From a virus, in the IMG/VR virus record IMGVR_UViG_3300025816_000021, positions 1-46,164 of that record: a stretch of 46,164 nt of DNA; one strand, written 5' to 3'. Positions 3,839 to 46,164 of the stretch are shown here, piece by piece. Position 1 is the stretch's first letter, and every line of letters starts with the position of its first letter. Made by a program: the position numbers and the translations under genes. Below the pieces are notes generated by a model, which saw only the letters and a program-made list of their open reading frames with translations, made no database searches and was not told where the DNA came from.

Positions 3839-4405
3839 ATGAGTCACGATTACGGTAGTAAAAGTGGTAAAGAAAGAGTTCGTGAATATAAAGCGATGGA
3901 AGCTATTTTACGAGGAGAGACTCCTGAAAAAAGAATAATGGTCGGCTACAAAGGTGAAAAAGCTGTACCGGAAGAAAGTCGTTTAACTGAGATAATGCAA
4001 AAAGTTAGAATGCCTTGGTTCTGTCCATCGTGTAAAAAGATTATGAAGAAAAACATTGATAGTCAAGTGTGGAGACAATTTGAACATTGTTTTGATTGTC
4101 AAATAGAATTTGAAAATAAACTAATCATTGAAGGCACACACAAAGAATGGAAAAAACGAAAGTCTTTAGAAAATAAGATATCTAAGATGAAAGACGACTT
4201 ACAAGGTATAAAAGAATTTTATGACCAAAAGTCTGTCACACATTTAAACGCAATAAATCCTGAATTAGGAGCTATTGATAGAGAAGAATATAGCGTTGAG
4301 AATCCTGAAGAATGGGATGCAAAAATTGATGAAGCTGTAAAATTTTTTGAAACTAACATAGAGAAACTTGAAACAGAGTTGGGAGAATTAAATGAAGTGG
4401 ATTAA
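3839..4405 (+). CDS. Zinc-finger plus coiled-coil protein, unknown function
   Basis: 188 residues. A four-cysteine knuckle is formed by C62-x2-C65 (FCPSC) and C84-x2-C87 (HCFDC), spaced 18 residues apart as in zinc ribbons. It is followed by a charged helical region, about 100-188, rich in Lys and Glu, likely a coiled coil. It starts 3 nt after the stop of the three-domain enzyme and overlaps the next gene by 14 nt, so it belongs to the unit leading into the terminase. The small terminase subunit of T4 (gp16) lies just before gp17 and is largely helical. This protein is a positional candidate, but I see no sequence resemblance and leave it unnamed. Confidence 0.85.
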   Translation: MSHDYGSKSGKERVREYKAMEAILRGETPEKRIMVGYKGEKAVPEESRLTEIMQKVRMPWFCPSCKKIMKKNIDSQVWRQFEHCFDCQIEFENKLIIEGTHKEWKKRKSLENKISKMKDDLQGIKEFYDQKSVTHLNAINPELGAIDREEYSVENPEEWDAKIDEAVKFFETNIEKLETELGELNEVD

Positions 4406-4703
4406 ATACATCTTAGGGTTTCTTGGGGCAGTCGGTGCGTTATTTGCTGTGAATAAAGCAAAAAGTGTAGAAGTGAAAAAACTTAAAAAGGTTATCGATG
4501 AAAACAAGAAAGAAGAAAAGAAAGTTGAAAAACAAATCGTAGAATTAGAAACAGCAAAGAAGTCTTCTAAAAAAGAGATTGGCAATATGAAAAGAAAACT
4601 TACTATGTCTAAAAAGAAAACTAAGAAGATGCAGGAAGTTTACGATAATGATGAAGTAGAATCAGCAGAAGATTTTCTTAGAAAGTTTGCTAAAAACAAA
4701 TGA
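4392..4703 (+). CDS. Small membrane-anchored coiled-coil protein
   Basis: 103 residues. A hydrophobic Gly/Ala-rich segment at about 4-20 (YILGFLGAVGALFAV) is followed directly by a Lys/Glu-rich heptad-like region, about 25-75, and a charged tail. The topology of one N-terminal membrane helix and an extended coiled coil resembles an inner-membrane spanin or a small membrane accessory protein. It overlaps the gene before it by 14 nt and the gene after it by 4 nt (ATGA). The next gene is also membrane-linked and coiled, so the two could act as a pair in lysis. That pairing is an inference from topology only. Confidence 0.75.
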   Translation: MKWIKYILGFLGAVGALFAVNKAKSVEVKKLKKVIDENKKEEKKVEKQIVELETAKKSSKKEIGNMKRKLTMSKKKTKKMQEVYDNDEVESAEDFLRKFAKNK

Positions 4704-41978: not shown

Positions 41979-44408
41979 ATGGCAGAACGAATTGTATCTC
42001 CGGGTGTATTTACCCGAGAGAAAGATTTATCATTCTTACCACAAGGTGTCGCAGAGATTGGAGCCGCAGTAGTCGGACCAACTTTACGAGGCCCTGCATT
42101 TACTCCTACCGTAATCACAAGTGCAAGTGACTTTGAAGCTCAATTTGGTGCGATAGGTGGTTCTAAGAACTACTACACAGGAATAGCAGTACAAAGATAT
42201 TTGAATGGCGGAGCGCCAAGTGTGACGGTAGTTAGAGTATTAGGTATAGGAGGATACTCAGTAGACGCAGTAAACGTAGTACTTGGTACCGGACACGCGG
42301 CTCAACAACACCGAATTTTAGCAACTTTATTACCATCAAGAAAACATTCAGCAGGATTAGGCGATTTAACTTCTACTTTAGTTAGTGGAAGTCTTGATGC
42401 TGGCCCATCTGCCGGTTTTGGTGATTATGCATCAGGAAGTGTAAAGGTTAGTGTATCAGGTTCAGACCTTTTACTTAACACGATACCAGGTGCTAATTTT
42501 TCAGGTGGCGGAACTAATGCAGTTACATCTGACCCGCAAGATAATACTAATCACGTTTATATGTACAAGTATTTTAATCAAGGCGGAAAAGTTCCATCAG
42601 GAGCGGTTAGCGGTGCTAATAGTATTTCAAGTTCACTTGTTACATTGAACTTACGAGATGGTGTACAATCATTTGATGCAAATGGTAACGCTAACACTTG
42701 GACAGGTAATAGTTCATATTCTGTTGCAAGAACACCTTATATAATTTCACAGAGATTGAACGGCGCTGCTGCTTCAAGTCTGTTTAGAATTTATACTCGT
42801 GGTTCAGGTACAGAAATGAACGAAAGAATACATATTGCTATTTCTAATATCAAAGCCGCAGCATCAAACAACACATCACCTGACTTTGCTCAGTTTGATT
42901 TACAAGTTTATCTAAAGAACGATAGTGGTGTATTTTCTTCTGTTGAAAACTTCAATGGATGTAATTTAGACCCTAAAAGTTCTAACTTTGTAGTTGCTAT
43001 GATTGGTGATGGACACGAAGTAACTGATAATAACGGAAAGATTACTAAATATAGCAATTATGGTAATAAAGCTCAGTTTATTAGAATCGGTGATTACACA
43101 GCATTAACAGATGGTACTAATCCAGCATTAGCGCCTATGGGATTTGGTAAAGTAAACAATCCTATAGCAGGTGGTGTTAATGTACCAAGTGCATCGTTTG
43201 TAACAAGTTCAGATAGTGACTTACAATTTGACCCAGGTAAATTTCCAGGTTGGGACTTTTCTGCAGCAAATTATATTAATAATGCTTACTTAGCTCCGAT
43301 ACCTTTAGATGCAGGTGTAGGTGCAAACGTATCATTTTCACTTGAAGACCTTTCAGGTTCAGCCGGTGGTAACGCAGGATTTGCTAACGCAACAACTCAG
43401 TTATCATTAGCATCAGGAACTAACGTACAACAGCGTAAGTTTAAAATACCGATGCAGTGGGGATTTGATGGTGATAATCCTGCTCGTGAAATTAAGTTTG
43501 GTAACGATATTGTTGCTAATAACACTCAAGGACTTGATTGTTCTACAGCAGTTAAGAGTGGTTCTGTTGCTTATAAAAGAGCATTGAATACACTTGCTGA
43601 CCCTGACTTTATCGACATTAATATGTTAGCAACACCAGGTATTATACACGCTTATCATCCTGCTGTTAGTAACAAGGCGATGAGTATTGCATCAAATCGT
43701 GGTGATACGTTCTACATATTAGATGGCTCTAAATACAACGAATCAGTAGCAAACGCTATTAGTAACGTTGCGAGTATAGACAACAACTATGTAGCTACTT
43801 ACTTTCCTTGGGTTCAGATATCTAATCCAGGAGGCGGTCCTCAACTTTGGGTTCCACCATCAGTAGTTATGTTAGGTGTCTTTTCACAGAACGATAGAAT
43901 CGGTCAAGAATGGTTTGCTCCCGCAGGTTTAAATCGTGGTGGCATCGCCGCTCTTGATGTTAAGAAGGTATTAACTCATACAGACAGAGATGAATTGTAT
44001 GATGGTAAAGTTAATCCGATTGCTTCTTTCCCAGGACAGGGTATTGTAGCATTTGGTCAAAAGACTCTACAATCAAGACCTTCAGCGCTCGACAGAATAA
44101 ATGTTCGTAGATTATTAATTAACTTGAAGAAGTTCATAGCATCATCTTCAAGATTCTTAGTATTTGAACAAAATACTGCGGCAACGAGAAATCGTTTCTT
44201 GAACATTGTCAATCCTTATATGGAATCTGTACAACAACGTTCAGGTCTTTCGGCATTCAGAGTAGTAATGGATGATTCCAATAATACTCCTGAAGTAGTA
44301 GATAGAAACCAATTAATTGGTCAAATCTTCATACAGCCTACAAGAACTGCTGAGTTTATTGTACTCGACTTTGTTGTATTGCCAACAGGCGCGGCATTCC
44401 CTGAATAA
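41979..44408 (+). CDS. 18: Tail sheath protein (T4 gp18-like)
   Basis: 809 residues; T4 gp18 has 659. Contractile sheath subunit that surrounds the tube and shortens during injection. Signature text: SPGVFTREKDLSFLPQGVAEIGAAVVGPTLRG at the N-terminus, ASDFEAQFG, QRYLNGGAPSVTVVRVLG, and in the C-terminal core ATYFPWVQI, WVPPSVVMLGVFSQNDR, WFAPAGLNRGGI, INVRRLLINLKKFI and TAEFIVLDFVVLPTGA. The extra length is in the middle (about 110-450), the variable outer domains of sheath proteins, which are Ser/Gly/Asn-rich here. It is preceded by ACAGGAG and followed by an intrinsic terminator. It is a single-gene unit. Confidence 0.97.
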   Translation: MAERIVSPGVFTREKDLSFLPQGVAEIGAAVVGPTLRGPAFTPTVITSASDFEAQFGAIGGSKNYYTGIAVQRYLNGGAPSVTVVRVLGIGGYSVDAVNVVLGTGHAAQQHRILATLLPSRKHSAGLGDLTSTLVSGSLDAGPSAGFGDYASGSVKVSVSGSDLLLNTIPGANFSGGGTNAVTSDPQDNTNHVYMYKYFNQGGKVPSGAVSGANSISSSLVTLNLRDGVQSFDANGNANTWTGNSSYSVARTPYIISQRLNGAAASSLFRIYTRGSGTEMNERIHIAISNIKAAASNNTSPDFAQFDLQVYLKNDSGVFSSVENFNGCNLDPKSSNFVVAMIGDGHEVTDNNGKITKYSNYGNKAQFIRIGDYTALTDGTNPALAPMGFGKVNNPIAGGVNVPSASFVTSSDSDLQFDPGKFPGWDFSAANYINNAYLAPIPLDAGVGANVSFSLEDLSGSAGGNAGFANATTQLSLASGTNVQQRKFKIPMQWGFDGDNPAREIKFGNDIVANNTQGLDCSTAVKSGSVAYKRALNTLADPDFIDINMLATPGIIHAYHPAVSNKAMSIASNRGDTFYILDGSKYNESVANAISNVASIDNNYVATYFPWVQISNPGGGPQLWVPPSVVMLGVFSQNDRIGQEWFAPAGLNRGGIAALDVKKVLTHTDRDELYDGKVNPIASFPGQGIVAFGQKTLQSRPSALDRINVRRLLINLKKFIASSSRFLVFEQNTAATRNRFLNIVNPYMESVQQRSGLSAFRVVMDDSNNTPEVVDRNQLIGQIFIQPTRTAEFIVLDFVVLPTGAAFPE

Positions 44409-44568: not shown

Positions 44569-45057
44569 ATGCCTGATTTGATAGATGCTAATGAGATATT
44601 TTTTACACCTTTCGAACCAAAAACGAAAAATCGTTTTATTATGGAAGTCGAAGGTATACCAAGTTTCTTAATTAGAGCCGCAAACCGTCCATCAATAGAA
44701 TTTGAAGAGATTGAATTAAATCACATTAATGTTAAGCGCTATGTGAAAGGTAAAGCTTCTTGGCAACCTTTGGACATTACTCTTTATGACCCAATCGTAC
44801 CAAGTGGTGCTCAAGCAGTTATTGAGTGGATAAGACTTGGACACGAATCAGTAACAGGAAGAGATGGATACTCTGACTTCTATAAAAAGAATGTTAACTT
44901 CCAATTACTTGGACCTGTCGGTGATGTTGTTGAGAAATGGGACCTTAAAGGCGCTTATATTCAATCTGCAAATTTTGGAGATTTGGATTGGTCAGTTAGT
45001 GAACCTGTAGACATAACTTGTACATTACGTTATGACTACGCAGTATTACAATTCTAA
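44569..45057 (+). CDS. 19: Tail tube protein (T4 gp19-like)
   Basis: 162 residues, the same size as T4 gp19 (163). It stacks in hexameric rings to form the inner tail tube through which DNA passes. Typical text: KTKNRFIMEVEGIPSFLIRAANRPSIEFEEIELNHIN, WQPLDITLYDPIVPSGAQAVIEWIRLGHE and the end VDITCTLRYDYAVLQF. These strands match the tube fold shared by gp19 homologues. Ribosome site ACAGGAG. It comes after the sheath gene, as in T4, but the two are separated by a terminator and a new promoter-like motif. Confidence 0.96.
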   Translation: MPDLIDANEIFFTPFEPKTKNRFIMEVEGIPSFLIRAANRPSIEFEEIELNHINVKRYVKGKASWQPLDITLYDPIVPSGAQAVIEWIRLGHESVTGRDGYSDFYKKNVNFQLLGPVGDVVEKWDLKGAYIQSANFGDLDWSVSEPVDITCTLRYDYAVLQF

Positions 45058-45060
45058 AAT

Positions 45061-45273
45061 ATGAATTTTATTAGAGAAATGCTATCAAGTGATGCGAAGA
45101 TATCGTCTAAACGGGCGATAGGTTTCGCATCATTTGTTATGCTAATAGCAAGTTGGGTAGCAAATACATTTTGGCAGTTTGAAGTGAAAGACATCATTCT
45201 TGAAAACTTTATGTATATTACCATAGTTGGCTTAGGCGTAACAGCAGCAGAAAAATTTAGTCGAAATAAATAG
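45061..45273 (+). CDS. Small two-helix membrane protein (holin-like)
   Basis: 70 residues. A polar start (MNFIREMLSSDAKISSKR) precedes a hydrophobic segment (19-37, AIGFASFVMLIASWVANTF), a short charged loop (FEVKDIILE), and a second hydrophobic segment (48-62, ENFMYITIVGLGVTA), ending in a charged tail (AEKFSRNK). Size, two membrane helices and charged ends resemble class II holins, which open the inner membrane at lysis. Placement between tube and baseplate genes is unusual for a holin. A membrane or tail role is also possible. Start only 3 nt after the gp19 stop. Confidence 0.72.
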   Translation: MNFIREMLSSDAKISSKRAIGFASFVMLIASWVANTFWQFEVKDIILENFMYITIVGLGVTAAEKFSRNK

Positions 45274-45308: not shown

Positions 45309-46046
45309 ATGAGTAAATTCCCTACTGAGGTAATAGATTTACCTTCAAGAGGATTAGTGTATCCTAAAGAACATCCACTTTCAAGTGGTAAAGTTGAAAT
45401 AAAATATATGACAGCAAAAGAAGAAGATATTCTTACTTCTCCTAACCTTATAGAAAAGGGTATTGTATTAGATAAACTATTAGAAAGTATTATCGTTACA
45501 GAAGGAGTCAAGTTAGATGACTTTGTTGTTGGTGATAAAAATACTTTGTTAGTATCAGCACGTATACTTGGGTATGGTAAAGATTATCCTATACAATTTG
45601 CTGACGAAGAGATAAACATTGATTTAACAAGTTTAAAAGAAATTTGGGTTGATGAGAAACATCTTGTCGAACCACATAAAAATGAGTTTAAGTTCACTAC
45701 ACCAATTAGTAAGAATGAAATAGTATATTCTATATTAGATGGTCATATGGAAAAACAACTTGAAGATTTAAATAAAGCATATGAAAAAGCAGGTCAATCA
45801 AGAGAGTTGACAAATAGATACAAAATGATTATCAAATCTGTTGATGGCAAATCAGAGAGAAAAGATATAGATGACTTTGTAGATAATTTATTTATGGCGA
45901 GAGATTCAGTAGCATTTAGAGACCATATAGCGAGTATATCTCCTGATATAGACTTCTCAACTAAAATAAAAAGAGAAGACGGAACTGAGCAGGAGGTAAC
46001 GGTCCCAATGACCGTTCGATTTTTTTGGCCTAACGCCTCAATATAG
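45309..46046 (+). CDS. 26: Baseplate protein (T4 gp26-like)
   Basis: 245 residues; T4 gp26 has 208. The N-terminus LPSRGLVYPKEHPLSSGKVEIKYMTAKEEDILTSPNLIEKG, followed by VLDKLLESIIV, is the signature of the T4 baseplate-protein family. The middle (LLVSARILGYGKDYPIQF) also fits. The last third is helical and charged, ending VPMTVRFFWPNASI. In T4, gp26 belongs to the baseplate hub/wedge assembly pathway. A Shine-Dalgarno-like AGGAGG, a hairpin and a T7 run lie inside its last 19 codons, and a conserved-looking frame without a start codon continues beyond it. This suggests that the protein also exists as a longer frameshifted form, as in tail-assembly chaperone pairs. Confidence 0.88.
   Translation: MSKFPTEVIDLPSRGLVYPKEHPLSSGKVEIKYMTAKEEDILTSPNLIEKGIVLDKLLESIIVTEGVKLDDFVVGDKNTLLVSARILGYGKDYPIQFADEEINIDLTSLKEIWVDEKHLVEPHKNEFKFTTPISKNEIVYSILDGHMEKQLEDLNKAYEKAGQSRELTNRYKMIIKSVDGKSERKDIDDFVDNLFMARDSVAFRDHIASISPDIDFSTKIKREDGTEQEVTVPMTVRFFWPNASI
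45991..46026 (+). promoter_or_regulatory. AGGAGG + hairpin + T7 run: candidate frameshift element (or terminator)
   Basis: AGGAGG is at 45991-45996. AACGGTC (45998-46004) pairs perfectly with GACCGTT (46010-46016) over a CCAAT loop. Three bases later come seven T (46020-46026), read in the gp26 frame as TTT-TTT-TGG. Phe-tRNA on TTT can re-pair after a +1 or -2 slip and enter the downstream frame. Hairpin plus T run also looks like an intrinsic terminator. Both readings are open. Confidence 0.55.
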
Positions 46047-46164
46047 AGAAAGCGTCTACGAACAAATATTTCAGCTTGGTTATTATAGCCAAGGTTTTTA
46101 TAGTTTTGATGAGTTATACAAAATGCCTATAGGTATGAGAGAATGGCATTACAGACGATTAGTA
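46012..46164 (+). CDS. Start-less downstream ORF, probable frameshift extension of the gp26-like gene (partial)
   Basis: This frame (+1 relative to gp26) opens after a TGA at 46009-46011 and has no stop to the window end, 51 codons. From the T run it reads FFGLTPQYRESVYEQIF, then QLGYYSQGFYSFDELYKMP and IGMREWHYRRLV. The pattern 'Y-EQIFQL-YY---F-F-E-Y-MP---R-W' resembles short tail or baseplate proteins of marine phages, where such a segment begins shortly before the MP motif. The first ATG (in KMP) comes only after that segment, and no GTG or TTG precedes it. A frameshift from gp26 is the simplest way to translate it; a homopolymer sequencing error is the alternative. Confidence 0.6.

Follow-up and report, generated by a model that had tools for sequence, protein, structure and literature searches.

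The 3' end of a 46,164-bp virus record (the window, by which we mean the whole stretch of DNA analysed) raises the question of how an open frame is expressed that overlaps the end of a gp26-like tail gene and in which no ATG, GTG or TTG codon precedes the conserved part in the window. The first-pass annotation, made from the sequence alone, had described this frame as protein-like and startless, and proposed that ribosomes enter it by a programmed +1 or -2 slip on a run of seven T. Our analysis indicates that the gp26-like gene is probably a tail-assembly-chaperone gene, and that a programmed +1 frameshift on its mRNA would yield a second, long form (TAC-NC, ~310 aa).

The gp26-like gene and the frame beyond its stop

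The tail genes at the 3' end of the window lie in the order sheath, tube, a 70-aa ORF and gp26-like. The sheath gene (gp18, 41979..44408, + strand) was identified by the Pfam families Phage_sheath_1 and Phage_sheath_1C and the tube gene (gp19, 44569..45057, + strand) by PHROG 4542 tail tube (E 6.5e-31), and both serve as syntenic context for the gp26-like gene; the tube gene also matches Pfam Phage_T4_gp19 at E 1.1e-4, under that model's curated cut-off. The hydrophobic 70-aa ORF (45061-45273) between the tube and chaperone genes is without a family match in Pfam or PHROG, and an ORF of near-equal length occupies the same place in the relative L002 (2743-2952). Further upstream, a gene cluster amid the phage genes (36921-41616) resembles sugar or LPS metabolism when its translations are read by eye, with a KDO-8-phosphate-synthase-like N-terminus, and two further products look like a radical-SAM protein (CxxxCxxC) and a glycosyltransferase.

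The gp26-like gene (45309..46046, + strand, stop TAG at 46044-46046) encodes a 245-aa protein, the putative short form of the chaperone (TAC-N), which matches the PHROG 150 baseplate hub at E 3.1e-5 and was compared in a 49-sequence alignment. Its C-terminal end reads ...VTVPMTVRFFWPNASI up to the stop. In the +1/-2 frame no stop interrupts positions 46012 to 46164, the last of the window, and the translation is FFGLTPQYRESVYEQIFQLGYYSQGFYSFDELYKMPIGMREWHYRRLV; under the +1 model it is read from 46024, which gives a trans-frame extension (46024..46164, + strand), the C-terminal part of the long form, that is cut off by the window end.

To compare this arrangement across relatives, we used a gp26 protein search, searches with alignments of the extension and two isolate genomes to gather 395 loci (some contigs were fetched twice), which comprise 291 different contexts of 70 nt and a set of 136 diverse loci. 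This revealed that the extension lies in the +1 (equivalently -2) frame relative to gp26 in 396 of 396 sequences with both halves, counting the window and its copy L001 and including the isolate genomes immuto and Mel-JY01, while none of the 396 has it in frame or in the -1 frame. The trans frame has no stop within 50 codons in any of 289 sequences, compared with 267 and 289 of the 289 for the other two frames. Past the gp26 stop, synonymous and nonsynonymous codon differences number 29633:12457 in the trans frame, against 5054:36620 and 3012:38582 in the others; these pairwise counts are non-independent, but the contrast between frames is large nonetheless. Judged by codon differences, then, the extension evolves as a protein, under purifying selection, solely in the +1/-2 frame. 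Its conservation starts exactly at the slip site. Complete extensions measure 62-118 aa, with 67 aa past the slip site in the two closest relatives, L002 and L003. In L002 the large tail ORFs further downstream are separated from the chaperone extension by an ORF with a weak methyltransferase match (3943-4551).

The slip site and the elements upstream of it

The predicted slip site, UUU-UUU-U at 46020..46026 on the + strand, lies in the overlap of the two frames, as the first-pass annotation had noted, and is read TTT TTT TGG in the 0-frame. T7 runs are common in the window, with seven on the + strand and 32 on the other, and a T7 alone is unremarkable; what counts is its position, frame and conservation. 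The heptamer follows the pattern TTT-[TC]T-[TA]-T, consensus UUU-YUW-U, in 291 of 291 contexts (one, L396, was assigned by hand as TTT TTT TGG), the variants being TTTTTTT (~248 contexts), TTTCTTT (42), TTTTTAT (1) and TTTCTAT (1). A T6 run in a relative would have fused the frames, and none was found: every relative has T7 or an interrupted run.

The first codon of the heptamer is always TTT and never TTC, although TTC makes up 17.6% of Phe codons in gp26-like genes; over the 136 diverse loci, treated as independent, the probability of this by chance is ~6e-12. Heptamer positions 2-4 are TTT or TTC in every context, and a P-site tRNA-Phe on codon 1 therefore always has a cognate codon at +1, after which positions 5-7 form the next codon of the new frame, TTT or TAT (Phe or Tyr). 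P-site slippage of this kind, from UUU to UUC at +1, is on record (PMC3498833). The base preceding the run is also constrained: it is T in 12 of 291 contexts, whereas 39% of third bases are T, and where an Asn codon precedes the run the ratio of AAC to AAT is 42:2, compared with 122:421 elsewhere. Since a T at this position would allow tandem -1 slippage, its avoidance bars that route.

Two elements lie just upstream, both of which had been picked out in the first-pass annotation. The first is a Shine-Dalgarno (SD)-like AGGAGG (45991..45996, + strand), whose last base is 24 nt 5' of the first T of the slip site; the second is a hairpin with a perfect 7-bp stem (45998..46016, + strand; AACGGTC/GACCGTT, loop CCAAT), which ends 3 nt 5' of the slip codon. 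We compared both, across the 136 loci, with a null model that kept the amino acids and sampled synonymous codons at their local frequencies. AGGAG or GGAGG occurs at -45..-19 in 106 of 136 loci, against 22.7 expected, its last base usually at -24 or -27, and an SD-like excess of comparable size was absent from four control stretches. At codon -10 the ratio of GAG to GAA is 78:7, compared with a background of 170:674. The 30 nt 5' of the slip site have a mean folding energy of -5.96 kcal/mol, against -3.05 expected (mean z -1.7), while the same control gives z values of -0.1 to -0.5 elsewhere. Perfect helices of at least 5 bp are found in 64 of the 136 loci (32±4.5 expected), and in 54 of these 64 the helix stops 3-6 nt 5' of codon 1 (at -7..-4). 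By this synonymous-codon test, selection acts on both the AGGAGG and the upstream hairpin over and above what the encoded protein requires.

In the 38 loci with the window's peptide pattern, the third-base pair -16:-10 is complementary in 21 (9.5±2.3 when shuffled) and the pair -19:-7 in 22 (16.7±2.1), with no excess complementarity at -22:-4. Hairpin pair covariation was non-significant in a second group of relatives, with the pattern Pro-x-Gly, in which the Gly codon is GGG in 41 of 71 cases, compared with 27 of 398 in the background; this preference is compatible with hairpin formation and with direct SD-like pairing alike. Together with the non-significant covariation in this group, the following count against the +1 model: about half of the 136 loci are without a perfect 5-bp helix, the SD lies at a linear distance of 23 nt upstream, more remote than in prfB or dnaX, and SDs are rarely used for initiation in the Flavobacterium relative (PMC12421855). 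A downstream stimulatory structure was also considered; the stretch directly 3' of the site has a folding z of -1.09, but it is coded in two frames, and hence we make no claim for such a structure.

Direction and codon of the proposed shift

The sequences establish the conserved trans frame, the slip motif and the selection on the SD and hairpin, and link the protein, through intermediates, to T4-type chaperones; from these we infer that a shift occurs, at some efficiency, and for which way it goes and at which codon we rely on pairing logic, the statistics of the motif and precedent. In the favoured model, the majority of ribosomes would decode UUU-UUU-UGG-CCU through to the stop, whose last base is 20 nt 3' of the T run, and release the short form. 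Some ribosomes would instead pause while tRNA-Phe occupies the P site on the first UUU. During the pause the hairpin would refold directly behind the E-site codon, assisted by the AGGAGG, for which 16S rRNA is a potential partner; abutting the E site, this hairpin duplex would strain the mRNA. The tRNA-Phe would then move from 46020-46022 to 46021-46023, re-pairing at +1 on UUU or UUC, and decoding would proceed as UUU-GGC-CUN (...F-F-G-L...). The part given here to the distant AGGAGG is a conjecture; folding of the hairpin would bring it close to the place that the hairpin itself occupies.

This geometry has precedents. With 70S ribosomes, stable hairpins adjacent to the slip site stimulated +1 and attenuated -1 shifting, the +1 stimulation reaching ~60% of that of an SD (PMC6321510). 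A natural stem-loop stimulates +1 shifting in yeast ABP140, only at sites that permit P-site re-pairing (PMC12661321), and in prfB an SD lies 3 nt 5' of CUUU (PMC12421855). By analogy, our locus fits the upstream-duplex +1 class: its P-site codon can re-pair at +1, and a duplex would lie just upstream of the codon in the E site.

The frame itself would be entered equally well by a -2 shift, as in phage Mu, in which the tRNA at positions 4-6 would move back to 2-4 and an extra residue would be incorporated (F-F-F-G). We regard this as unlikely. It has a precedent in Mu gpGT (PMC5009743; PMC3498833), UUU to UUU re-pairing would be perfect in 248 of 291 contexts, and the invariant T at position 3 is equally compatible with it; the CTT, TTA and CTA variants, however, would require a Leu tRNA to wobble or mispair on UUC or UUU, and a duplex near the E site promotes forward and opposes backward slippage (PMC6321510).

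It is improbable, too, that a +1 slip takes place one codon later, with the tRNA moving from positions 4-6 to 5-7 while a slow UGG (Trp) codon occupies the A site, in the manner of CUU-U in prfB. Such a slip would leave the invariant T at position 3 unexplained and the hairpin 6-9 nt off, and the tRNAs reading the TTA and CTA variants (L012/L252, L069, and TTT-CTA-TTC in L405) would be unable to re-pair on UAU, even though the TTT and CTT variants are compatible and CTT-TGG is similar to CUU-UGA. Slippage of the tRNA at positions 4-6, in either direction, thus meets mismatches in some Leu-coding variants. What favours a +1 slip at the first Phe codon is that tRNA-Phe finds a cognate UUY one base forward in all variants. 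Of the two slips first proposed, then, the shared frame is borne out in every copy, and +1 is preferred to -2.

Transcriptional slippage, in which mRNAs with an altered number of U would fuse the two frames, is very improbable: a T7 is a plausible site for it, but ~44 contexts with interrupted runs (TTTCTTT, TTTTTAT, TTTCTAT) retain the arrangement, and selection on the SD and hairpin indicates translation. We give scarcely any credence to the extension being a separate protein made from its own start codon, with the AGGAGG as its ribosome-binding site. An ATG, GTG or TTG of some kind is present in the trans frame near the site in 68 of 136 loci, but the other 68, the window included, are without any, a start with an SD-like motif at the usual spacing occurs in nine of the 136, and conservation sets in exactly at the slip site; no consistent start codon emerges among the relatives. 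Finally, a sequencing error, to which homopolymer runs are prone, or a decayed gene is ruled out by the frame shared in all 396 copies, isolates included, and by purifying selection on the extension.

A programmed frameshift at TTT-TTT-TGG is supported by the frame, by the motif and by the upstream elements, and a +1 slip at its first codon is the reading we carry forward.

The chaperone family and comparison with known systems

In Flavobacterium phage immuto the annotated gene order is sheath, tube, gp26-like, short ORF, tape measure. The location of the pair between tube and tape measure thus combines the tube in the window with the tape measure downstream in immuto, as the window ends before that point. 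The lambda gene order is V-G-GT-H, to which the immuto order corresponds. In profile comparisons, the fused product of the window's clade matched the fused products of phages with a -1 shift (prob 96.9, 274 columns); these in turn matched T4 gp26 and full-length gp51 (prob 99.8 each), and T4 gp26 matched the N-terminal part of gp51 (prob 99.3). Direct profile comparison of the window's clade with T4 was non-significant. Through these intermediates, profile homology probably places the gene pair in the T4 gp26/gp51 family of tail-assembly chaperones, and we infer the chaperone function from this relationship. The short form is modelled with confidence by AlphaFold (pLDDT 91.8); among viral models it resembles, with others, gp26-like proteins of SP-15 and of T4-like phages, and in the PDB it weakly matches the HK97 tail chaperone 2ob9 (prob 0.41, E 2.0). 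The extension modelled alone is poor (pLDDT 64). A methyltransferase-like ORF after the extension in L002 counts against the proposed role, in which binding of the tape measure is putative. By this role, the ratio of short to long form would be used for tube assembly around the tape measure, as in lambda G/GT.

Several T4-type relatives have the homologous extension in the -1 frame, namely P-SSM2, MED4-213, Melnitz-3, OLIVR5, RHph_Y68, S13, ZPAH1, Mendera and phiM12. Their site is (T)TTT-TT(C/T/G), with a T before the run in nine of nine and G-rich sequence ~10 nt upstream. In these loci the ORF after gp26, which is this -1 extension, bears the label baseplate hub assembly catalyst gp51 or no annotation (L407, L408 and L414, cyanophages and a Methylophilales phage; L398 and L409, Pootjesviridae; L399 and L403, Straboviridae; L410; L411). 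T4 has two separate genes, 26 and 51. It appears from these comparisons that a single chaperone family is expressed in three ways, by a +1 shift, by a -1 shift and from two genes. A more distant group, comprising Bacillus phage SP-15 (L412), Listeria phage LIS04 (L413) and phage GXN1 (L404), also has an extension in the +1/-2 frame, with TTT-TTT-CAC, TTT-TTT-AGT or TTC-TTT-CGT near the gp26-like stop, followed by a common xCC-CGA.

Frameshifted tail chaperones with -1, -2 and +1 shifts are well known (PMC5009743), and a -1 GTTTTT site was described in Vandenendeviridae in 2025 (PMC12846349). Vladimirov et al. 2022, as cited in PMC10885494 and PMC12846349, treat T4 gp26/gp51 as chaperones; the title cited in PMC10885494 has T4-like phages employ a mechanism other than frameshifting, and the 2025 paper credits the same work with -1 poly-T signals in T4-like TAC-N genes (PMC12846349). 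The literature searched, with most subscription papers outside its scope, holds no description of a +1 shift in a gp26-type gene or of an SD-plus-hairpin upstream stimulator in a phage. While tail-chaperone frameshifting is already known, a +1 shift in T4-type phages with such a stimulator appears to be new. By a narrow balance, we favour a broader reading, in which this is a natural phage +1 signal where an E-site-refolding hairpin and an upstream SD replace the SD duplex of prfB, and in which, within one chaperone family, the direction of the shift (+1 or -1) changes along with the upstream stimulator and the one base that precedes the T run.

Earlier descriptions have T4 without a tail-chaperone frameshift; a large, mostly uncultured T4-type clade, with isolates on Flavobacterium and Microcystis, very probably has one, in the unusual +1 direction. 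Its putative SD-plus-hairpin +1 stimulator occurs in hundreds of natural variants, which provide a test of how a duplex on the exit side of the ribosome determines the direction of slippage. For annotation, a short gp51-like ORF after gp26 in many phages, cyanophages too, should probably be read as the latter half of a gene with a frameshift.

The locus resembles lambda G/GT, and likewise P2 and Mu, in having overlapping ORFs between the tube and tape-measure genes and a long form that would arise by a frameshift near the end of the first ORF: the second ORF lies in another frame, overlaps the end of the first and is startless, and the slippery sequence is conserved. The first-pass annotation drew this parallel while regarding a gp26-type gene as an unusual host for it; the parallel holds, but the gene itself is probably a tail-assembly chaperone. 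Whereas the shifts in lambda, P2 and Mu are -1 or -2, the one here is apparently +1 on UUU-Y with an upstream SD and hairpin, in a protein probably of the T4 gp26/gp51 family, and the slip-site variants make a Mu-type -2 shift less likely. The Kyanoviridae, Pootjesviridae, S13/ZPAH1, Menderavirus and phiM12 share a homologous fusion with the shift at a Phe-Phe pair just 5' of the gp26 stop, but in the -1 frame and with a T preceding the run. Through this -1 clade, the short and fused long forms are profile-homologous to gp26 and gp51 of T4 (Straboviridae), in which the two forms are separate genes. With prfB (release factor 2) the locus would share a +1 P-site slip and a duplex that ends 3 nt before the codon that slips; in prfB, however, that duplex is formed by the SD with 16S rRNA and a stop codon occupies the A site, whereas at our locus an mRNA hairpin stands in the adjacent position, with the SD further away and a sense codon (TTT, CTT, TTA or CTA) in the A site. 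The stimulator itself is like the yeast ABP140 stem-loop (PMC12661321) and synthetic hairpins in the 70S system (PMC6321510), where a hairpin directly upstream of a +1 site stimulates shifting; the present locus would differ from these as a natural, widely conserved phage case with an SD in addition.
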